Below, piece by piece: positions 8,649 to 17,691 of a stretch of 64,000 nucleotides of DNA; the stretch's first letter is position 1; each line of letters begins with the position of its first letter. Source of the stretch: Deltaproteobacteria bacterium HGW-Deltaproteobacteria-19 (GTDB taxonomy: Bacteria > Desulfobacterota > Syntrophia > Syntrophales > PHBD01); the NCBI GenBank assembly GCA_002841865.1, contig PHBD01000010.1, positions 1 to 64,000 of the forward strand, given 5' to 3'. The notes beneath the pieces were generated by a model that saw only the letters and a program-made list of their open reading frames with translations, searched no databases and was not told the DNA's origin. The position numbers and the translations under genes are program-made.

Positions 8649-9416
8649 TCAGCGGCCGGCCGGGCAGACGGCCAGGCAGCGGAAGCACTCGTACTGGAAC
8701 CCGATGAAGGACGCCTGGTAGAGGCTGAGGAACCTGGGGTCCATGAACATGGCCTTCTGCTCCTCCGGCGCTGCCCCTGCCAGTTTCCGCAGGAAGCCGA
8801 TGGCGGAGCCGATGCCATAGGGCTGGGACACCCGCAGGCACTTCATGTTCTCCGTCCTTCCCTCCGTCTCGAGGGCCTTGGCCGGGCAGATGTCGACGCA
8901 GAGGCCGCAGTCGTTGCAGAGCTCCTCCGTCACGGGCGGATCGGAGGACAGGGGCAGGTCCGTCAGGATCGCCGTGAAGATGAGCCGGGTGCCGAATTTC
9001 GGGTGGATCACCAGGTTGTGGCGGCCGAAGACACCCAGTCCCGCGGCCACGGCGGCATGGCGGAGCGACACATCGGCCACGAGGCCGAAGTACGGCGCCC
9101 CCATGTTCAGGGGATAGGACAGGGCCACCGCCGCCGCCTTCGCCCGGAAGCGGTTCTCCAGCCATCGGGCCATCAGGTAGTTGTTCTTCTGGGCCACATC
9201 CATGATACCGAAGCGCTCCGTCATGCTGGTCCTGGGGTTCGGGCTGTCCAGGGATCCGTCCACTTCCCGGTAGCCCAGAACAACCACGGACTTCACCGAG
9301 GGTAAGACGGCGGTTAATTCCGGCGTCCGGGGCGACTTGTAATCCCCGGCGGCGGCGAAGCCGACCACATCCGCACCCAGTTCCAGACCGTACTTTCTGA
9401 TCTCTTCCTTGCTCAT
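8649..9416 (-). CDS. QueG-like [4Fe-4S] ferredoxin-domain protein
   Basis: A 255-residue iron-sulfur protein. SLRHAAVAAGLGVFGRHNL is the cobalamin/substrate-side segment shared with epoxyqueuosine reductase-like proteins. CNDCGLCVDICPAKAL is a complete ferredoxin motif and CFRCLAVCP lies at the extreme C-terminus. The start is set at 9416 because AAAGGAG precedes it; a 47-residue upstream extension is Arg/Lys-rich and not protein-like. Real QueG is longer and has two adjacent clusters, so this is a paralogue of unknown reaction. Confidence 0.7.
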   Translation of the reverse strand: MSKEEIRKYGLELGADVVGFAAAGDYKSPRTPELTAVLPSVKSVVVLGYREVDGSLDSPNPRTSMTERFGIMDVAQKNNYLMARWLENRFRAKAAAVALSYPLNMGAPYFGLVADVSLRHAAVAAGLGVFGRHNLVIHPKFGTRLIFTAILTDLPLSSDPPVTEELCNDCGLCVDICPAKALETEGRTENMKCLRVSQPYGIGSAIGFLRKLAGAAPEEQKAMFMDPRFLSLYQASFIGFQYECFRCLAVCPAGR

Positions 9417-9563
9417 CGCGTCTCCTTTCCCGGGACTGCCTGCCGGAAGTCCATCTCCCGTTTCCGTGAGGCGCCCTTTACGGTTTTTCTGCTGTCTGGC
9501 GGTCGTTCGCTTTCGGTACCGCCGGTCACGAATTTCGCGTACGAAATAAAAGGACAAAAATTT

Positions 9564-9980
9564 TTACGCCTGGAGATCCCGGAGCATCCGCTTCAGGAGC
9601 AGGCGCTCTTCCGGCCGCAGGCATTCCATGATCTCTTCGTTGGCGCCGTCCCTGGCCCGGATGAGATCCCCGGCGGCTTCCCTCGCCTTGTCCGTGAGGG
9701 AGATCCGGAGGGTCCGCCGGTCGTCGTCGGCGATCTCCTTCACGATCCAGCCTGCCTCCGCCAGGCGGTCCAGGAGCCCCGACAGCGTCGCGTAATCGAG
9801 AGTCAGGCGCCGGGCCAGCTCCCCCGCGGACACCCCCTCGCCCTCGTGCAGGGCCAGGATGACCAGGCTCTGCGGCGGTGTCAGGCCGTACGGCTGCAGC
9901 CTCTTTTTCAGCTTCCCATGGGCGCGCTGGTAGGCCTTGGACAGGAGGAATACGATGCAGTCTTCGTAAGGGGATGCCAT
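9564..9980 (-). CDS. MarR-family transcriptional regulator
   Basis: A 138-residue winged-helix repressor-type protein. The recognition helix region reads SAGELARRLTLDYATLSGLLDRLAEAGWI, followed by the wing DDDRRTLRISLTDKARE, the standard MarR pattern. The ATG at 9980 is preferred over one 12 codons upstream because of AAGAGGC before it. It is divergent from the fatty-acid oxidation gene at 10270 across 289 bases, so it may control that gene. The ligand is unknown. Confidence 0.85.
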   Translation of the reverse strand: MASPYEDCIVFLLSKAYQRAHGKLKKRLQPYGLTPPQSLVILALHEGEGVSAGELARRLTLDYATLSGLLDRLAEAGWIVKEIADDDRRTLRISLTDKAREAAGDLIRARDGANEEIMECLRPEERLLLKRMLRDLQA

Positions 9981-10269
9981 GGATTTGCCTCTTATGTTTC
10001 GTGTGCTAAATATCAAGCCGACAAGGTCGTGTCAACGGGATTTTCATTCCGTTCGCCGCCATCTCTCGCAAAGGCTGGCATCCGGCGCTTCGGACGGGGC
10101 GCTTTCTCAAGAGCGTCGCAGCGGCCCGAGCCCCGGGACGGTTTTTCATGGTCCCCCACGGGGATCTATGCTACACAAACACGTCTGCTCTCCCTCCGGG
10201 AGACGCAGGCTGGGAAAAGCGTCGCAGGGATCAGCCGGGTTGTTCCATTCATCTCAAAGGAGGTAGCGT

Positions 10270-12469: not shown

Positions 12470-12811
12470 TCACGACCGGATCATGACGAGCATCATCTTG
12501 AAGGCCTTGACGGCCTGGAGCGCATGGGGCTCGCCGGCCGGCATGATGATCATCTCCCCGGCCTTCAGCCGATGCGGTTTCCCCGATATGGAGACCTCCG
12601 ACTCCCCGTCCAGGATCAGGACCAGTGCGTCGAAGGGCGCCGTGTGCTCGCTGAGCCCCTGCCCCTCGTCGAAAGCGAACAGCGTGACCGTCCCTGTCTT
12701 ACGGCCCAGGATCTGCCGGCTCACCACGGAGCCCTCCTGGTAGGCCGCCAGGGCCGCTGTCTCGAGCACCCTGCCCCGGAGATCCGCCTCTTTTGCATCG
12801 ATTCGTTCCAT
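12470..12811 (-). CDS. Small cupin-domain protein
   Basis: A 113-residue single-domain cupin. The metal-type motif is visible as SEHTAPFDALVLILDGE and, 25 residues on, GEMIIMPAGEPHAL, giving the usual His..Glu and His ligands. RBS GGAGG precedes ATG 12811. It lies 50 bases downstream of hcp on the same strand, so it probably shares the hcp promoter and its FNR-like site. Such small cupins often bind metal or sense small molecules; no reaction can be assigned. Confidence 0.82.
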   Translation of the reverse strand: MERIDAKEADLRGRVLETAALAAYQEGSVVSRQILGRKTGTVTLFAFDEGQGLSEHTAPFDALVLILDGESEVSISGKPHRLKAGEMIIMPAGEPHALQAVKAFKMMLVMIRS

Positions 12812-12861: not shown

Positions 12862-14487
12862 CTAATTGAGGATCGCCGCCAGATCCGCCTCCGCCGTTGT
12901 GATGGGCATGAGGCCGAAGTCCTTCACCAGGACGTCCAGGACGCCCGGCGACACGAAGGCCGGCAGGGACGGCCCCAGGCGGATGTTCCGGATCCCCAGG
13001 TGGAGCAGCGTCAGCAGGATCGCCACGGCCTTCTGCTCGTACCACGACAGGACCAGGGACAGGGGCAGTTCGTTCACCCCCACGCCGAAGGCCTCCGCCA
13101 GGGCCTGGGCGATCTTCACGGCCGAGTAGGCGTCGTTGCACTGGCCGACGTCGAGGAGCCGCGGGATCCCGCCGATGTCCCCCAGTTCGCGGTCGAAAAA
13201 CCGGAACTTCCCGCAGGCCAGGGTGAGAATGACCGTGTCGGCCGGCGCCTTCTCGACGAACTCGGTGTAGTAGCTCCGCCCGGGCCGGGCACCGTCGCAG
13301 CCTCCCACGAGGAAGAAGTGCCGGATCTTCCCGGCCTTCACCGCTTCCAACACCGCGCCCGCCACGGAGAGGACCGCGTTCCTCCCGAACCCGACGGTGA
13401 CGGACTTCTCCCCCGTCTCCTCCGTGAATCCCGGCAGGGACAGGGCCTTGTCGATCACCGCGGAAAAGGACTCCCGATCGAGATGCGGGATGCCGGGCCA
13501 ACCGACGGCGCCGGTGGTGAAGATCCGGTCCGCGTATTCCTCCCGGGGCTTCTGGATGCAGTTGGTCGTCATCAGGATCGCCCCGGGGAAGGCGGCGAAT
13601 TCCCGGTGCTGGTTCTGCCAGGCCGTCCCGTAGTGGCCGTACAGGTGCGGATATTTTTTCAGGCCCGGATAGCCGTGGGCCGGCAGCATCTCGCCGTGGG
13701 TGTACACGTCGATCCCCTTCCCCGCACTCAGGCGAAGGATCTCCTCGATGTCTTTCAGATCGTGGCCGGAGACAAGAATGGCCTTCCCCGGCCTCGTTCC
13801 CAGGGGCACCCTCGTCGGCACCGGATGGCCGTAAGTCTCCGTGTGGGCCGCATCCAGGATCTCCATGGCCCGGAGGTTGATTTCGCCGCACTTCAGGACA
13901 AGCCCCAGGAGGTCCGGCACGCCGAGGCTTTCGTCGAGCGTCGCCGCCAGCCCATCGTGGCAGAAGCCGTAGACGGCATCGTCCTCCCGGCCTAGGATCC
14001 GGGCGTTGTCCGCATAGGCGGCAACGCCCTTGAGCCCGTACGTCAGGAGTTCCCGAAGAGATCGGATGTTCAGATCGAGGCTCGCCGCCGTCGGGATGCC
14101 GACCTCCTCCCCCTGGCGGACGAGACCTTCCATGGTATCCGCCGGGGCGAACGAGAAGGCCTTTCCTTCCGGCGGCGTGCCGCCCGCTCCAAGAATCTTC
14201 TCCCGGAGCGCGTCCCGGCGGGCCGCGCATTCGCGAACCAGCGCGGCGATTCTTGCGGGATCGAAGTTGACGTTGGTCAGGGTCGCAAAGAGGGCCCGGA
14301 CGGTAAACGGGCCGGCCCCGGAATCGTCAAGGCCCATCCGGCGGGCCGCCAGTACGGTCCCGGAATATCCCTTCAGGGCATGAACCAGCAGGTCCTGCAG
14401 GACCGCCACCTCGGGAGGCTTTCCGCATACACCGCCCTTTTCACATCCCGTCCCCTTCGCCGTCTGCTCGCACTGAAAACAAAACAT
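12862..14487 (-). CDS. hcp: Hydroxylamine reductase (hybrid-cluster protein)
   Basis: The hybrid-cluster protein acts in nitrosative stress defence (hydroxylamine or NO reduction); cytosolic, 541 residues. The N-terminal cluster motif is CFQCEQT..GCEKGGVCG (C-x2-C-x8-C-x5-C), the pattern of the strict-anaerobe class. Downstream GHDLKDIEE, CNDAYSA and LACGKF supply hybrid-cluster ligands. ATG 14487 follows a near-perfect AGGAGGAA; an upstream extension of 16 residues is less likely. Divergent from the Fe-S gene at 14622, with an FNR/HcpR-like palindrome in between. Confidence 0.95.
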   Translation of the reverse strand: MFCFQCEQTAKGTGCEKGGVCGKPPEVAVLQDLLVHALKGYSGTVLAARRMGLDDSGAGPFTVRALFATLTNVNFDPARIAALVRECAARRDALREKILGAGGTPPEGKAFSFAPADTMEGLVRQGEEVGIPTAASLDLNIRSLRELLTYGLKGVAAYADNARILGREDDAVYGFCHDGLAATLDESLGVPDLLGLVLKCGEINLRAMEILDAAHTETYGHPVPTRVPLGTRPGKAILVSGHDLKDIEEILRLSAGKGIDVYTHGEMLPAHGYPGLKKYPHLYGHYGTAWQNQHREFAAFPGAILMTTNCIQKPREEYADRIFTTGAVGWPGIPHLDRESFSAVIDKALSLPGFTEETGEKSVTVGFGRNAVLSVAGAVLEAVKAGKIRHFFLVGGCDGARPGRSYYTEFVEKAPADTVILTLACGKFRFFDRELGDIGGIPRLLDVGQCNDAYSAVKIAQALAEAFGVGVNELPLSLVLSWYEQKAVAILLTLLHLGIRNIRLGPSLPAFVSPGVLDVLVKDFGLMPITTAEADLAAILN

Positions 14488-14562
14488 GGCTTCCTCCTGT
14501 CCCGGCGCATCGGGGGCGCCGTCCGTTTTGCTCATGCATAACCTGTCCCGCCGCGGCTGTCC

Positions 14563-14576
14563 TTGACTTAAATCAA
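14563..14576. promoter_or_regulatory. FNR/CRP-family palindrome (HcpR/FNR-like box)
   Basis: The sequence TTGACTTAAATCAA fits the FNR-type consensus TTGAT-N4-ATCAA with one mismatch. It lies 76 bases upstream of hcp on one side and 46 bases upstream of the Fe-S gene at 14622 on the other. HcpR, a CRP/FNR-family regulator of hcp in Desulfobacterota, and FNR itself both bind half-sites of the TTGA type. Control of both divergent transcripts is inferred. Confidence 0.65.
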
Positions 14577-14621
14577 GAGTTCTGCTCTTTTCCTCCCACG
14601 ATCCCCATGAAAGGAGGCTCC

Positions 14622-15473
14622 ATGGAAACCGCCCGCTGGCTGGCAGGGCAGATCCGCGAATTCGTCCGTACGAGCCCGGACAACTCCCTCCGGAAAGGGA
14701 CCGGCGAGAAGGCCTGGCAGGAGCCGCTGGTGGGCTTCGCCGGCGGGGCGGATCCCCTCTTTGCCCGGCTGAAGGAGGACATCGGTGATTTTTACTGGAC
14801 GCCCGGGGACATCTTCGCCCTGACCTTCCCGGACCGCCCCGCCCTGCCGGAGGACCTGACCGTCGTCAGCTGGGTCCTCCCCCAGACAAAGGCGACAAAG
14901 AAGGACAACCGGCACCTCAAGGAACGTCCTTCGGAGCGCTGGGCCCGGTCCCGCAAGTTCGGCGAGGAGTTCAACGTGCTGCTCGCCCGCCACGTCGTGG
15001 ACCGGCTCCGGGAGAAGGGGATCGCCGCCGTGGCCCCGTCTCTCGGCTCCCCCCTCTGGGGATGGCGGGAGTCGCCCCGGTACGGATTCGCCTCCACCTG
15101 GTCGGAACGGCACACCGCCCACGCTGCGGGCCTGGGCACCTTCGGCCTCTGCGACGGTCTCATCACGCCGGCGGGAAAGGCCATACGCTGCGGCTCCGTC
15201 GTTGCGGCATTTCCGTCTTCGCCTCCAGCGCGGCCCTACAGCGATCATCACGCCTGGTGCCTCTTTTTCACGGACGGGACCTGCGGCAAATGCATTCCCC
15301 GCTGCCCCGCCGGGGCCATCTCGGAGCAGGGGCACGACAAGGCGCGATGCCGGGCCTTCCTGTTCGAAACCGTGGCGCCCTTCACGAAGGAGCGTTTCGG
15401 TTTCGAGAGCCACGGCTGCGGCCTCTGCCAGACGGGCGTTCCGTGCGAGTCGCGCATCCCCCTGAAGGCATGA
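14622..15473 (+). CDS. QueG-like [4Fe-4S] protein, divergent from hcp
   Basis: A 283-residue iron-sulfur protein. CGKCIPRCPAGAI forms most of one cluster site and CGLCQTGVPCESR part of a second at the C-terminus. TAHAAGLGTFGLCDGLITP is the segment shared with epoxyqueuosine-reductase-like proteins. The ATG at 14622 follows AAAGGAGG; an ATG 15 bases upstream lies on the wrong side of that site. The stop overlaps the next gene (ATGA). Sharing a promoter with hcp suggests a redox or nitrosative-stress role. Confidence 0.7.
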   Translation: METARWLAGQIREFVRTSPDNSLRKGTGEKAWQEPLVGFAGGADPLFARLKEDIGDFYWTPGDIFALTFPDRPALPEDLTVVSWVLPQTKATKKDNRHLKERPSERWARSRKFGEEFNVLLARHVVDRLREKGIAAVAPSLGSPLWGWRESPRYGFASTWSERHTAHAAGLGTFGLCDGLITPAGKAIRCGSVVAAFPSSPPARPYSDHHAWCLFFTDGTCGKCIPRCPAGAISEQGHDKARCRAFLFETVAPFTKERFGFESHGCGLCQTGVPCESRIPLKA

Positions 15474-16111
15474 AGGCGCATCGAACCATCGGCCTGCTCC
15501 GGAGCGGGCGGCCCGTCACCCTTGCCGCCCTGGGCGATTCCCTGACCCGGGGCTGGATGGTCCGCAAGGGCTACCTCGACTACCTGGCGGAGATGCTCCG
15601 CCGGGATTACCCGGCCTGCGATCTCCGGATCGTCAACGAGGGCCTCCCCGGCGACACGGCGGACTGCGGTCTCTACCGGCTGGAGACGGACATTCTGGAC
15701 GCAAAGCCGGACTGCGTCCTCGTCCAGTATGCCATCAACGACGCCTCCCTGGGTTTCACGACGGGCCGGTTCAAGCGGACCATCCGGGGCATCGTCGAGA
15801 AGATCCGCCGCGCCGGAGAGGCGGAGATCGTTCTCGTCACCTCCAGCTTCATCGGCGACAACCGCGAGAATGCCATCGCCGAGGAGTACTACCAGGTGCT
15901 TGCGGATATCGGGGAGGAGGAGGGACTGCCCGTCGCCCTTGTCCACGAGCACTGGAAGAGGAAGGTTGCGGAGGGAGTGGACTGGCGGTCCCTCGTCCAG
16001 TTCGACTTCGTCCACCCCACCATGGAGGGCTATCGGCACATGGCCGAGGCCGTCATGGAGATGTTCCGGGAAGATCATGCGGAGGAGCTGCAGAAACTCC
16101 CGAAGCGCTGA
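15470..16111 (+). CDS. SGNH/GDSL-family hydrolase
   Basis: A 213-residue hydrolase of the GDSL lipase/esterase fold. Block I is ALGDSLTRGW (catalytic Ser), block II the Gly in GLPGDTADCG, block III AIND in place of the usual GxND, and block V FVHPTMEGY with the Asp/His pair. No signal peptide is visible. Translation is coupled to the preceding Fe-S gene by an ATGA overlap. Substrate unknown; members hydrolyse acyl esters, including acetyl groups on sugars. Confidence 0.85.
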   Translation: MKAHRTIGLLRSGRPVTLAALGDSLTRGWMVRKGYLDYLAEMLRRDYPACDLRIVNEGLPGDTADCGLYRLETDILDAKPDCVLVQYAINDASLGFTTGRFKRTIRGIVEKIRRAGEAEIVLVTSSFIGDNRENAIAEEYYQVLADIGEEEGLPVALVHEHWKRKVAEGVDWRSLVQFDFVHPTMEGYRHMAEAVMEMFREDHAEELQKLPKR

Positions 16112-16178: not shown

Positions 16179-17006
16179 ATGCCCGGAACAGACTTGATCT
16201 TCACACCGGAGGACCGGCGGATCCTGCGGCGAATTCTTACGGCCGGCCGGCATGGCGCCGGGAGCGCCGATGGGGGGGAACTGACCGCCCGCCTGGGCCT
16301 CCTGTTCCTGGGCGCACCTTATGAAGCATCCACCCTTGAAGGAAGGAAGGGCTCCCGCGAACCGCTCGTGATCAGCCTGCAGGCCTTTGACTGCTTCACC
16401 TTCGTGGAGTCCGTGACGGCCCTGGCCCTGACAGTCCGGGCCGGGAAAACATCTCCGGAGGCCTTTGCCGGAATCCTGGAACGCCTCCGGTATCGCCGGG
16501 GGATCCGCGGAGACTACGCCTCCCGCCTCCACTACTTCACCGACTGGCTCGGAGACAACAAACGGCTGGGAATCCTCCGCGACGTGACCCGGGAACTGGG
16601 CGGAAGGGCCCTTCCGAAGCCGATCCGCTACATGTCGGACCATCCGGGATCCTATCCACCCCTGGCCGACGGGACCCAACGGGCGGAGGTGCGCCGCGCG
16701 GAGCGCAATCTCACCAGGCGCGTCCGGCATTTTCTTCCGACAGATTCCATCAGGGAAGCGGAGTTGTTGATCCGGGAGGGGGACATGATTGGTGTCACCG
16801 CCGCCGCGGAGGGCCTCGACGTCATCCACGCCGGTCTGGCGGTGCGAAGGGATGGCCGGATCCATCTCCTCCACGCCTCACGGCCGGCAGGCGGCGTTGT
16901 GGTCACGGAGGAACCCCTGCACCGCTATGTTGCCGGACGCAACGACGCCACCGGCATCGTCGCGGGACGGCTGAGATTGCCACAGAAGTCGCTCCCGGCA
17001 TCCTGA
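16179..17006 (+). CDS. DUF1460 (amidase-like) protein
   Basis: A 275-residue protein of the DUF1460 group, related to NlpC/P60 cysteine amidases. The hallmark LQAFDCFTFVES places the likely nucleophile at Cys72, and DVIHAGLAV supplies the His. RBS AAAGGAGAAG precedes ATG 16179. Crystallised family members act as N-acetylmuramoyl-L-alanine amidases, so a wall-fragment substrate is plausible. No signal peptide is evident, which is odd for an enzyme acting on intact wall. It follows the GDSL gene by 67 bases. Confidence 0.8.
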   Translation: MPGTDLIFTPEDRRILRRILTAGRHGAGSADGGELTARLGLLFLGAPYEASTLEGRKGSREPLVISLQAFDCFTFVESVTALALTVRAGKTSPEAFAGILERLRYRRGIRGDYASRLHYFTDWLGDNKRLGILRDVTRELGGRALPKPIRYMSDHPGSYPPLADGTQRAEVRRAERNLTRRVRHFLPTDSIREAELLIREGDMIGVTAAAEGLDVIHAGLAVRRDGRIHLLHASRPAGGVVVTEEPLHRYVAGRNDATGIVAGRLRLPQKSLPAS

Positions 17007-17205: not shown

Positions 17206-17691
17206 TCAGTCCGTCGATTCCGACTCCGGCGTGGAGGCGCCTGCGGCGTACATGCCCCGCTTCACTTTCCGGACTTTTCCCCGCTTCTCGGCGGCGTAAA
17301 TGACGCCCCAGATCTGCTGTTCCGAAAGGCCCGTATTGCTCTTCAAGTCCGACGTAGTGACCCCCGAGGGGTTTTTCCGGATCAGATCCAGAACCCTGTC
17401 CGTGTTGGAGGATCCACGGACTCTCCTGCCTCCGGCCCGCTTGTTCTGCATTGCCGGTTTGCGCACTTTCTTCTCTTTTCCGGCCTTCTTTGCCTTCATG
17501 CCCTTCCCGGCTTTCACGGCTTTCTTCGGTGATCGGCCTTTCTTTCTCCTGGGCTCTTCACGCACCTCCTGCGCCACCGAAAGGATGAGGCTCTGAATCT
17601 TGTCGAAGTACGTCTCAACAAACACCTGGCTCCCCTCTATTTCGATTTCCATGGAAGACGGATTGAACTTGATACGATAGTTTCCGCCCAT
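17206..17691 (-). CDS. Histone-H1-like basic protein with C-terminal winged-helix domain
   Basis: A 161-residue probable DNA-binding protein. Residues 1-45 form a small acidic domain (MEIEIEGSQVFVETYFDKI). About 46-95 is a Lys/Arg/Ala/Pro/Gly-rich linker resembling H1 or HU tails. Residues 95-150 look like a winged helix (DRVLDLIRKNPSGVTTSDLKS followed by LSEQQIWGVIYAAEKRGKV). RBS AAAGGAGG precedes ATG 17691, and a good sigma-70 promoter lies upstream. A nucleoid or regulatory role is inferred; the target is unknown. Confidence 0.7.
   Translation of the reverse strand: MGGNYRIKFNPSSMEIEIEGSQVFVETYFDKIQSLILSVAQEVREEPRRKKGRSPKKAVKAGKGMKAKKAGKEKKVRKPAMQNKRAGGRRVRGSSNTDRVLDLIRKNPSGVTTSDLKSNTGLSEQQIWGVIYAAEKRGKVRKVKRGMYAAGASTPESESTD

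Follow-up and report, generated by a model that had tools for sequence, protein, structure and literature searches.

The hybrid cluster protein, the product of hcp, removes nitric oxide (NO) or hydroxylamine. Its gene belongs to the published regulon of HcpR, together with frdX and often with ferredoxin- and hemerythrin-like genes (Rodionov et al. 2005, PMC1274295). For the delta-proteobacteria other than Desulfovibrio, the same study gives the HcpR motif as wyTTGACnnnnGTCAArw and the residue at position 180 of the regulator as Ser or Pro (PMC1274295). The HcpR of Porphyromonas gingivalis is reported to be a heme-dependent protein that responds to NO (PMC12750200).

The locus described here lies in a window of 64,000 nucleotides, which is the whole stretch of DNA that was analysed. 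In this window, hcp and a gene for a QueG-like Fe-S protein are divergently oriented, and a sequence-only reading had noticed a palindrome of the FNR/HcpR type in the promoter between them. This observation was correct: TTGACTTAAATCAA was confirmed at 14563-14576, within the 134-bp intergenic stretch that extends from the hcp start (14487, reverse strand) to the QueG-like start (14622, forward strand). The features of the locus, in window coordinates, are the following:

14563 to 14576, no strand assigned: predicted HcpR operator, TTGACTTAAATCAA, which reads TTGATTTAAGTCAA towards hcp; centre at 14569.5
14540 to 14535, reverse strand: predicted -10 hexamer of the hcp promoter, TATGCA, which begins 23 nt past the site
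12862 to 14487, reverse strand: hcp, hybrid cluster protein, 541 aa from MFCFQCEQT (Pfam Prismane, E 4.9e-166)
12470 to 12811, reverse strand: small cupin protein, directly 3' of hcp (Pfam Cupin_2)
14622 to 15473, forward strand: Fe-S protein of the QueG/RdhA fold, 283 aa (TIGR00276, 20.1 bits with a cut-off of 200; pLDDT 93.8)
15470 to 16111, forward strand: GDSL hydrolase (Pfam Lipase_GDSL_2, E 8.2e-25), with a 4-bp overlap with the preceding QueG-like gene
16179 to 17006, forward strand: AmiA-like protein (Pfam PF07313, E 2.1e-48), of the family for which DUF1460 is the older name

The hcp product also scored above the cut-offs of NCBIfam TIGR01703 and NF003658, and its start at 14487 is preferred to the less likely in-frame upstream start at 14535. 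The cupin gene is possibly co-transcribed with hcp; a cupin relative was present in 3 of the 30 hcp loci searched, two of the three being those of this genus. In G072, another genome of the order (locus L053), a cupin relative (62% identity, L053:1148-1417) lies behind hcp, and so does an AmiA-like relative (44% identity, L053:294-1070), which is on the strand opposite to hcp.

With the base composition of the window, about 0.0002 matches to the pattern TTGAY-N4-RTCAA are expected between the two genes, within 134 bp, and about 5 in the genome as a whole. Genome-wide, the pattern had 11 matches as compared with 8 for the reversed control pattern, and thus taken alone it is weak evidence. The perfect palindrome TTGACTTAAGTCAA, with up to 2 mismatches allowed, was found at 4 places in the window genome (G000; control, 4) and at 4 in a sister species of the same genus (G020; control, 2). 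With 0-1 mismatch, the only places in either genome were the promoter of hcpR, the regulator gene described below, and the hcp/QueG promoter, whereas about 0.14 such places per genome are expected from base composition. The window site departs from the perfect palindrome once, having ATCAA for GTCAA, and from wyTTGACnnnnGTCAArw twice, at this core base and at the outermost left flank base. The places with two mismatches are:

G000 C8:41906: TTGACTTATATCAA, within an open reading frame (L007), read as chance
G000 C31:86406, G020 C1:1064980 and G020 C6:176255: other places with two mismatches to TTGACTTAAGTCAA

A wider HcpR regulon with weaker sites may exist elsewhere in the genome. The decisive evidence against chance comes from other hcp promoters, in which the window site is conserved.

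We surveyed 155 genomes of the order and found an hcp match in 97 of them. The upstream regions compared were those of 30 hcp loci and of 52 additional matches of full or almost full length, 82 altogether, fragment matches being excluded even where they held the N-terminus. Of the 82 regions, 50 (28/30 and 22/52) had the exact TTGAY-N4-RTCAA no more than 350 bp upstream of hcp; in 200 first-order Markov controls, the corresponding count averaged 0.27 and never exceeded 2. The relaxed form TTRAY-N4-RTCAA occurred within 200 bp in 69/82 (Markov control mean 0.32, maximum 2), so that the comparison across hcp promoters proposed in the sequence-only reading came out in favor of the site. Two classes of hcp proteins can be told apart by the N-terminus: MFCxQCEQ, to which that of the window belongs, and MFCxQCQET. 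Among the upstream regions of the first class, 45 of 48 carried TTRAY-N4-RTCAA within 200 bp (the three without a site were L057, L071 and L117), and eleven, those of the genus included, carried the exact window word TTGATTTAAGTCAA. In the second class, the exact TTGAY pattern was present in 5/34 regions and the TTRAY form in 24/34 within 200 bp, mostly as TTAACATAAGTCAA, while 10/34 were without it.

The aligned hcp promoters were scanned for a TATAAT-like hexamer at offsets 13-32 from the site. The resemblance peaked at offset +23 in both classes, with a mean of 3.71/6 for the 45 promoters of the first class (at least 4/6 in 29/45; other offsets at most 2.49) and of 3.83/6 for the 24 promoters of the second class (at least 4/6 in 16/24; other offsets at most 3.08). 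A -10-like peak at this offset places the center of the site at -41.5, the position of a class II activator; the aligned promoters thus combine, relative to their predicted starts, the location and the fixed distance to the -10 element that characterize class II activation by CRP/FNR proteins. Moreover, the occurrence of one site-to--10 spacing in 69 aligned hcp promoters argues for activation, and not repression, of hcp. In the window, this alignment would put the hcp transcription start near 14528, with the site center at -41.5. The window hexamer TATGCA matches the consensus in 3/6 positions, and its counterpart in G020 is TATGTA. Since a simple consensus promoter scan of 14440-14660 gave no promoter on either strand, the predicted hcp -10 rests on the comparison of aligned promoters.

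The search for an hcpR/fnr homologue, also proposed in the sequence-only reading, yielded a regulator of the HcpR type in the window genome:

C48:14463-15158 (= L014:779-1477, reverse strand): hcpR, CRP/FNR-family regulator, 232 aa (PF00027, E 4.7e-25; PF13545, E 2.8e-17)

The protein is composed of a cNMP-binding domain and an HTH_Crp_2 domain, and it is one of two proteins of the window genome above the PF13545 cut-off, the other being encoded on L002. In this genome, hcpR is not adjacent to hcp. Immediately upstream of its start lies the perfect palindrome TTGACTTAAGTCAA; the ferredoxin gene, whose product has 4Fe-4S domains, is divergent from hcpR, and a hemerythrin-domain gene lies behind hcpR. 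The recognition helix of the regulator is LGTIPETLSRIL; when it is aligned by eye with the CRP helix, from which the numbering was derived, positions 180 and 181 are Pro and Glu. This helix conforms to the rule for the motif wyTTGACnnnnGTCAArw, by which the first of these positions is Ser or Pro and the second Glu (PMC1274295). A site was present in 24 of 30 hcpR upstream regions, of which 300 bp were read. A hexamer with at least 4/6 matches at offset 23 accompanied 14/24 of these sites on the side away from hcpR, as compared with 1/24 on the side towards hcpR; in this genus, the hexamers on the ferredoxin side are TAAGAT and TAAAAT. The placement of the hexamers at the hcp and hcpR sites indicates that hcp and the ferredoxin gene are the likely activated genes.

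At least 150 of the 155 genomes contained a match to the regulator (E <=0.001, other CRP/FNR proteins included). Within the stretches read, a match accompanied hcp at no fewer than 19/48 loci of the first class and at least 26/34 of the second; these are lower bounds, as the flanks extended over 1.5 and 0.9 kb, and one of the 26 second-class matches was only 25% identical. A tree was calculated for 72 regulators, namely those beside hcp, with 3 short second-class matches omitted, and those of 30 further loci, without any published HcpR sequence and with one outgroup, whose very long branch groups with L131, a case flagged as long-branch. In this tree, the regulator of the window genome grouped with 17 of the 19 regulators beside first-class hcp (support 94/91), and 23 regulators beside second-class hcp formed one separate group (100/100). 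Its closest kin were a clade of 28 rows from several families, many of them adjoining a ferredoxin gene and none taken from the hcp loci. Among the matches listed, its nearest relatives, beside a ferredoxin gene or alone, were about 55-66% identical to it, and the regulators beside hcp of its own class 45-58%. As this clade from outside the hcp loci read spans several families, the separation of hcp from hcpR appears to be common, and the idea that the two genes were parted in this genus alone was dropped. In G009 and G019, hcp and the regulator gene are a few kb apart.

The recognition helices of these regulators vary together with the sites. The helix LGTIPETLSRIL is paired mostly with the site TTGACTTAAGTCAA, and the helix LGTGPESLSRAL mostly with TTAACATAAGTCAA. 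The hcp genes of the MFCxQCQET class (L133-L166) mostly have the asymmetric HcpR site TTAACATAAGTCAA and a neighboring regulator that has the changed helix LGTGPESLSRAL and belongs to a clade of its own; a natural shift of specificity is a possible explanation of this combination. Four of the 19 regulators beside first-class hcp carry Gly at position 180, where the published rule calls for Ser or Pro; they have LGTTGES-type helices and TTGAC or TTGAT sites.

On the other side of the palindrome, 14622 is the likely start of the QueG-like gene, since in G020 one extra base between the candidate starts 14607 and 14622 puts the ATG at 14607 out of frame. The product is not a true QueG according to the curated model, its TIGR00276 score being far below the cut-off. 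Its predicted structure could be superimposed on QueG (5t8y_A; Z 15.7, rmsd 3.1, 206 residues) and on the reductive dehalogenase PceA (5m8w_A; Z 14.6, rmsd 3.0, 208 residues), and it has two conserved Fe-S cysteine clusters; judged from this model, it probably carries a corrinoid and two [4Fe-4S] clusters. A literature search gave no paper joining epoxyqueuosine reductase with the hybrid cluster protein.

The sequence-only reading had extended HcpR control to the QueG-like, GDSL and DUF1460 genes. This extension found no support outside the genus. We read 110 QueG-like loci with 84 distinct protein segments (30 strong matches with flanks and the best 80 of 265 relatives), plus 20 upstream stretches. 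Matches to hcp, GDSL or AmiA-like genes occurred in the flanks read of 2/110 loci, both of this genus, and these are also the only ones in which the site lies close to the QueG-like gene. The loose motif lay within 350 bp of the QueG-like gene in 4/110 loci: the two of the genus, and L028 and L192, which encode the same protein and share one motif match at -318. The 20 further upstream stretches had the motif in none.

Of 80 loci with the QueG-like gene, at most 11 shared any one neighbor family, and the only specific lead was hgcAB. An hgcA-type gene lies upstream on the same strand in 8/80 loci (L188-L267; e.g., L244:2273-3460), and an hgcB-type ferredoxin gene in 6/80 (e.g., L223:3369-3695); one representative of each type scored 465.7 bits with NF040863 (hgcA) and 127.4 bits with NF040864 (hgcB). 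A link of the QueG/RdhA-fold protein with the mercury-methylation corrinoid system is possible. A search of the window genome and G020 gave no hgcA. Elsewhere in the window, a second Fe-S protein with partial likeness to QueG is encoded at 8649-9557 on the reverse strand (TIGR00276 63 bits, cut-off 200), adjoining a gene for a MarR-family regulator (9564-10016, reverse strand). Two full-length QueG-like proteins of the same genome, at G000:C31:176159-177181 and G000:C2:62571-63569, scored 170.3 and 141.9 bits with TIGR00276, below the cut-off of 200. The gene at 17206-17691 of the window (reverse strand) encodes a protein with an AbiEi-antitoxin-type winged helix in its C-terminal part (PF13338, E 2.7e-7).

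The palindrome at 14563-14576 is very probably the HcpR operator of hcp and acts by class II activation, an interpretation drawn from sequence comparison that takes in the ferredoxin gene and hcpR as well. Two other explanations of the site were rejected. That it is a chance palindrome without function would agree with the small excess of the loose pattern over its control (11 as against 8) and with the two-mismatch palindrome being no commoner than the control in G000, but it is scarcely conceivable in view of the conservation at hcp promoters, the -10-like peak at a single spacing, and the almost identical palindrome in the hcpR promoter. A classical, oxygen-sensing FNR might also own the site. 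The consensus of FNR is TTGAT-N4-ATCAA, and TTGAC-N4-ATCAA is equally close to it and to TTGAC-N4-GTCAA. However, the GTCAA form occupies both halves at the hcpR promoter and at many hcp promoters, and neither of the two proteins above the PF13545 cut-off fits: the regulator, with a single cysteine among its 232 aa, lacks the cysteine ligands of a [4Fe-4S] cluster and scores 57.5 bits with the Fnr-subfamily model, whose cut-off is 228, while the L002 protein has a CRP-like helix, SRETVSR, and scores 77 bits for Fnr. With the cysteines lacking and the scores this low, ownership by FNR is very improbable.

A further alternative is that in this genus the same HcpR site serves both directions, controlling also the QueG-like, GDSL and AmiA-like genes by activation or, in another variant, by repression, with HcpR covering a -35-like TTGACT on the QueG side. 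One operator would then bring a corrinoid/Fe-S oxidoreductase, a GDSL hydrolase and an AmiA-like protein under nitrosative-stress control. The site does end 45 nt before the QueG-like start, and a 58-bp run (14559-14616), which takes in the site and the first 40 of these 45 nt, is identical in G020, while the QueG-like gene differs at 20% of its four-fold sites (31/152). Yet hcp differs at only 11% (34/316) in the same two-species comparison, in which the QueG-like gene also contains an identical run of 49 bp and hcp one of 304 bp, and therefore the 58-bp run is only suggestive. Towards the QueG-like gene, offset +23 is occupied by CGATCC, 0/6 as counted by eye, which leaves this side with no -10 at the class II distance; CACGAT at offset +21, two bases short of the usual spacing, has 3/6 by the same count, equal to the hcp hexamer. 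The simple scan gave no sigma-70-like promoter in this direction, but it missed the hcp promoter too. As the QueG-like relatives outside the genus have neither an adjoining hcp nor a near site in the loci read, we consider bidirectional control unlikely. If it were true, induction of the QueG-like gene would offer a first functional hint for its family of corrinoid-fold Fe-S proteins, which is widespread.

In the preferred interpretation, HcpR, encoded elsewhere in the genome, would bind TTGATTTAAGTCAA in the hcp promoter, with the center of the site at -41.5, and would switch on hcp by class II activation; it would probably sense nitric oxide through heme, by analogy with its studied relatives. 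It would also bind the perfect palindrome between hcpR and the divergent ferredoxin gene, where it probably activates the latter and acts on its own gene. The HcpR control of hcp put forward in the sequence-only reading is thus backed by an HcpR-type regulator in the genome and by a site conserved upstream of hcp relatives, both pointing to such control. It is slightly less firm because the nearest kin of the regulator are not beside hcp and the window -10 is weak. An HcpR operator at hcp is an already known, ordinary and widely conserved arrangement, and the switch for defence against nitrogen oxides, which was predicted for other delta-proteobacteria in 2005, would extend to this order, probably Syntrophales.

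Among proteins of solved structure, the closest to the regulator by sequence is DNR of Pseudomonas aeruginosa (PDB 3dkw, E 5.7e-28). DNR is a heme-based NO sensor with FNR-like sites that governs denitrification genes, and it represents another group of the regulator's family. The divergent protein shares with QueG and the reductive dehalogenases a predicted fold over about 205 residues and two Fe-S cysteine clusters, but differs from QueG in being shorter and in its score with the QueG model, 20.1 versus 200 bits. In common with the system of HcpR1 and HcpR2 in Desulfovibrio desulfuricans 27774, hcp would be under CRP/FNR-family control that responds to NO (PMC5701242). HcpR1 of this strain is reported to bind TGTGA-N6-TCACA, unlike the window site, and HcpR2 controls hcp and was modelled as a repressor, whereas the spacing found here points to activation (PMC5701242). 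The closest match is the regulon of the HcpR1 branch, which has the same Pro/Glu specificity residues, the same TTGAC-N4-GTCAA and the same hcp and ferredoxin-like targets, the ferredoxin gene of this genome being likened to frdX by description (PMC1274295). Compared with that regulon, this locus differs in having a QueG-like gene on the other side of its hcp promoter and in the change of one GTCAA half to ATCAA (PMC1274295).
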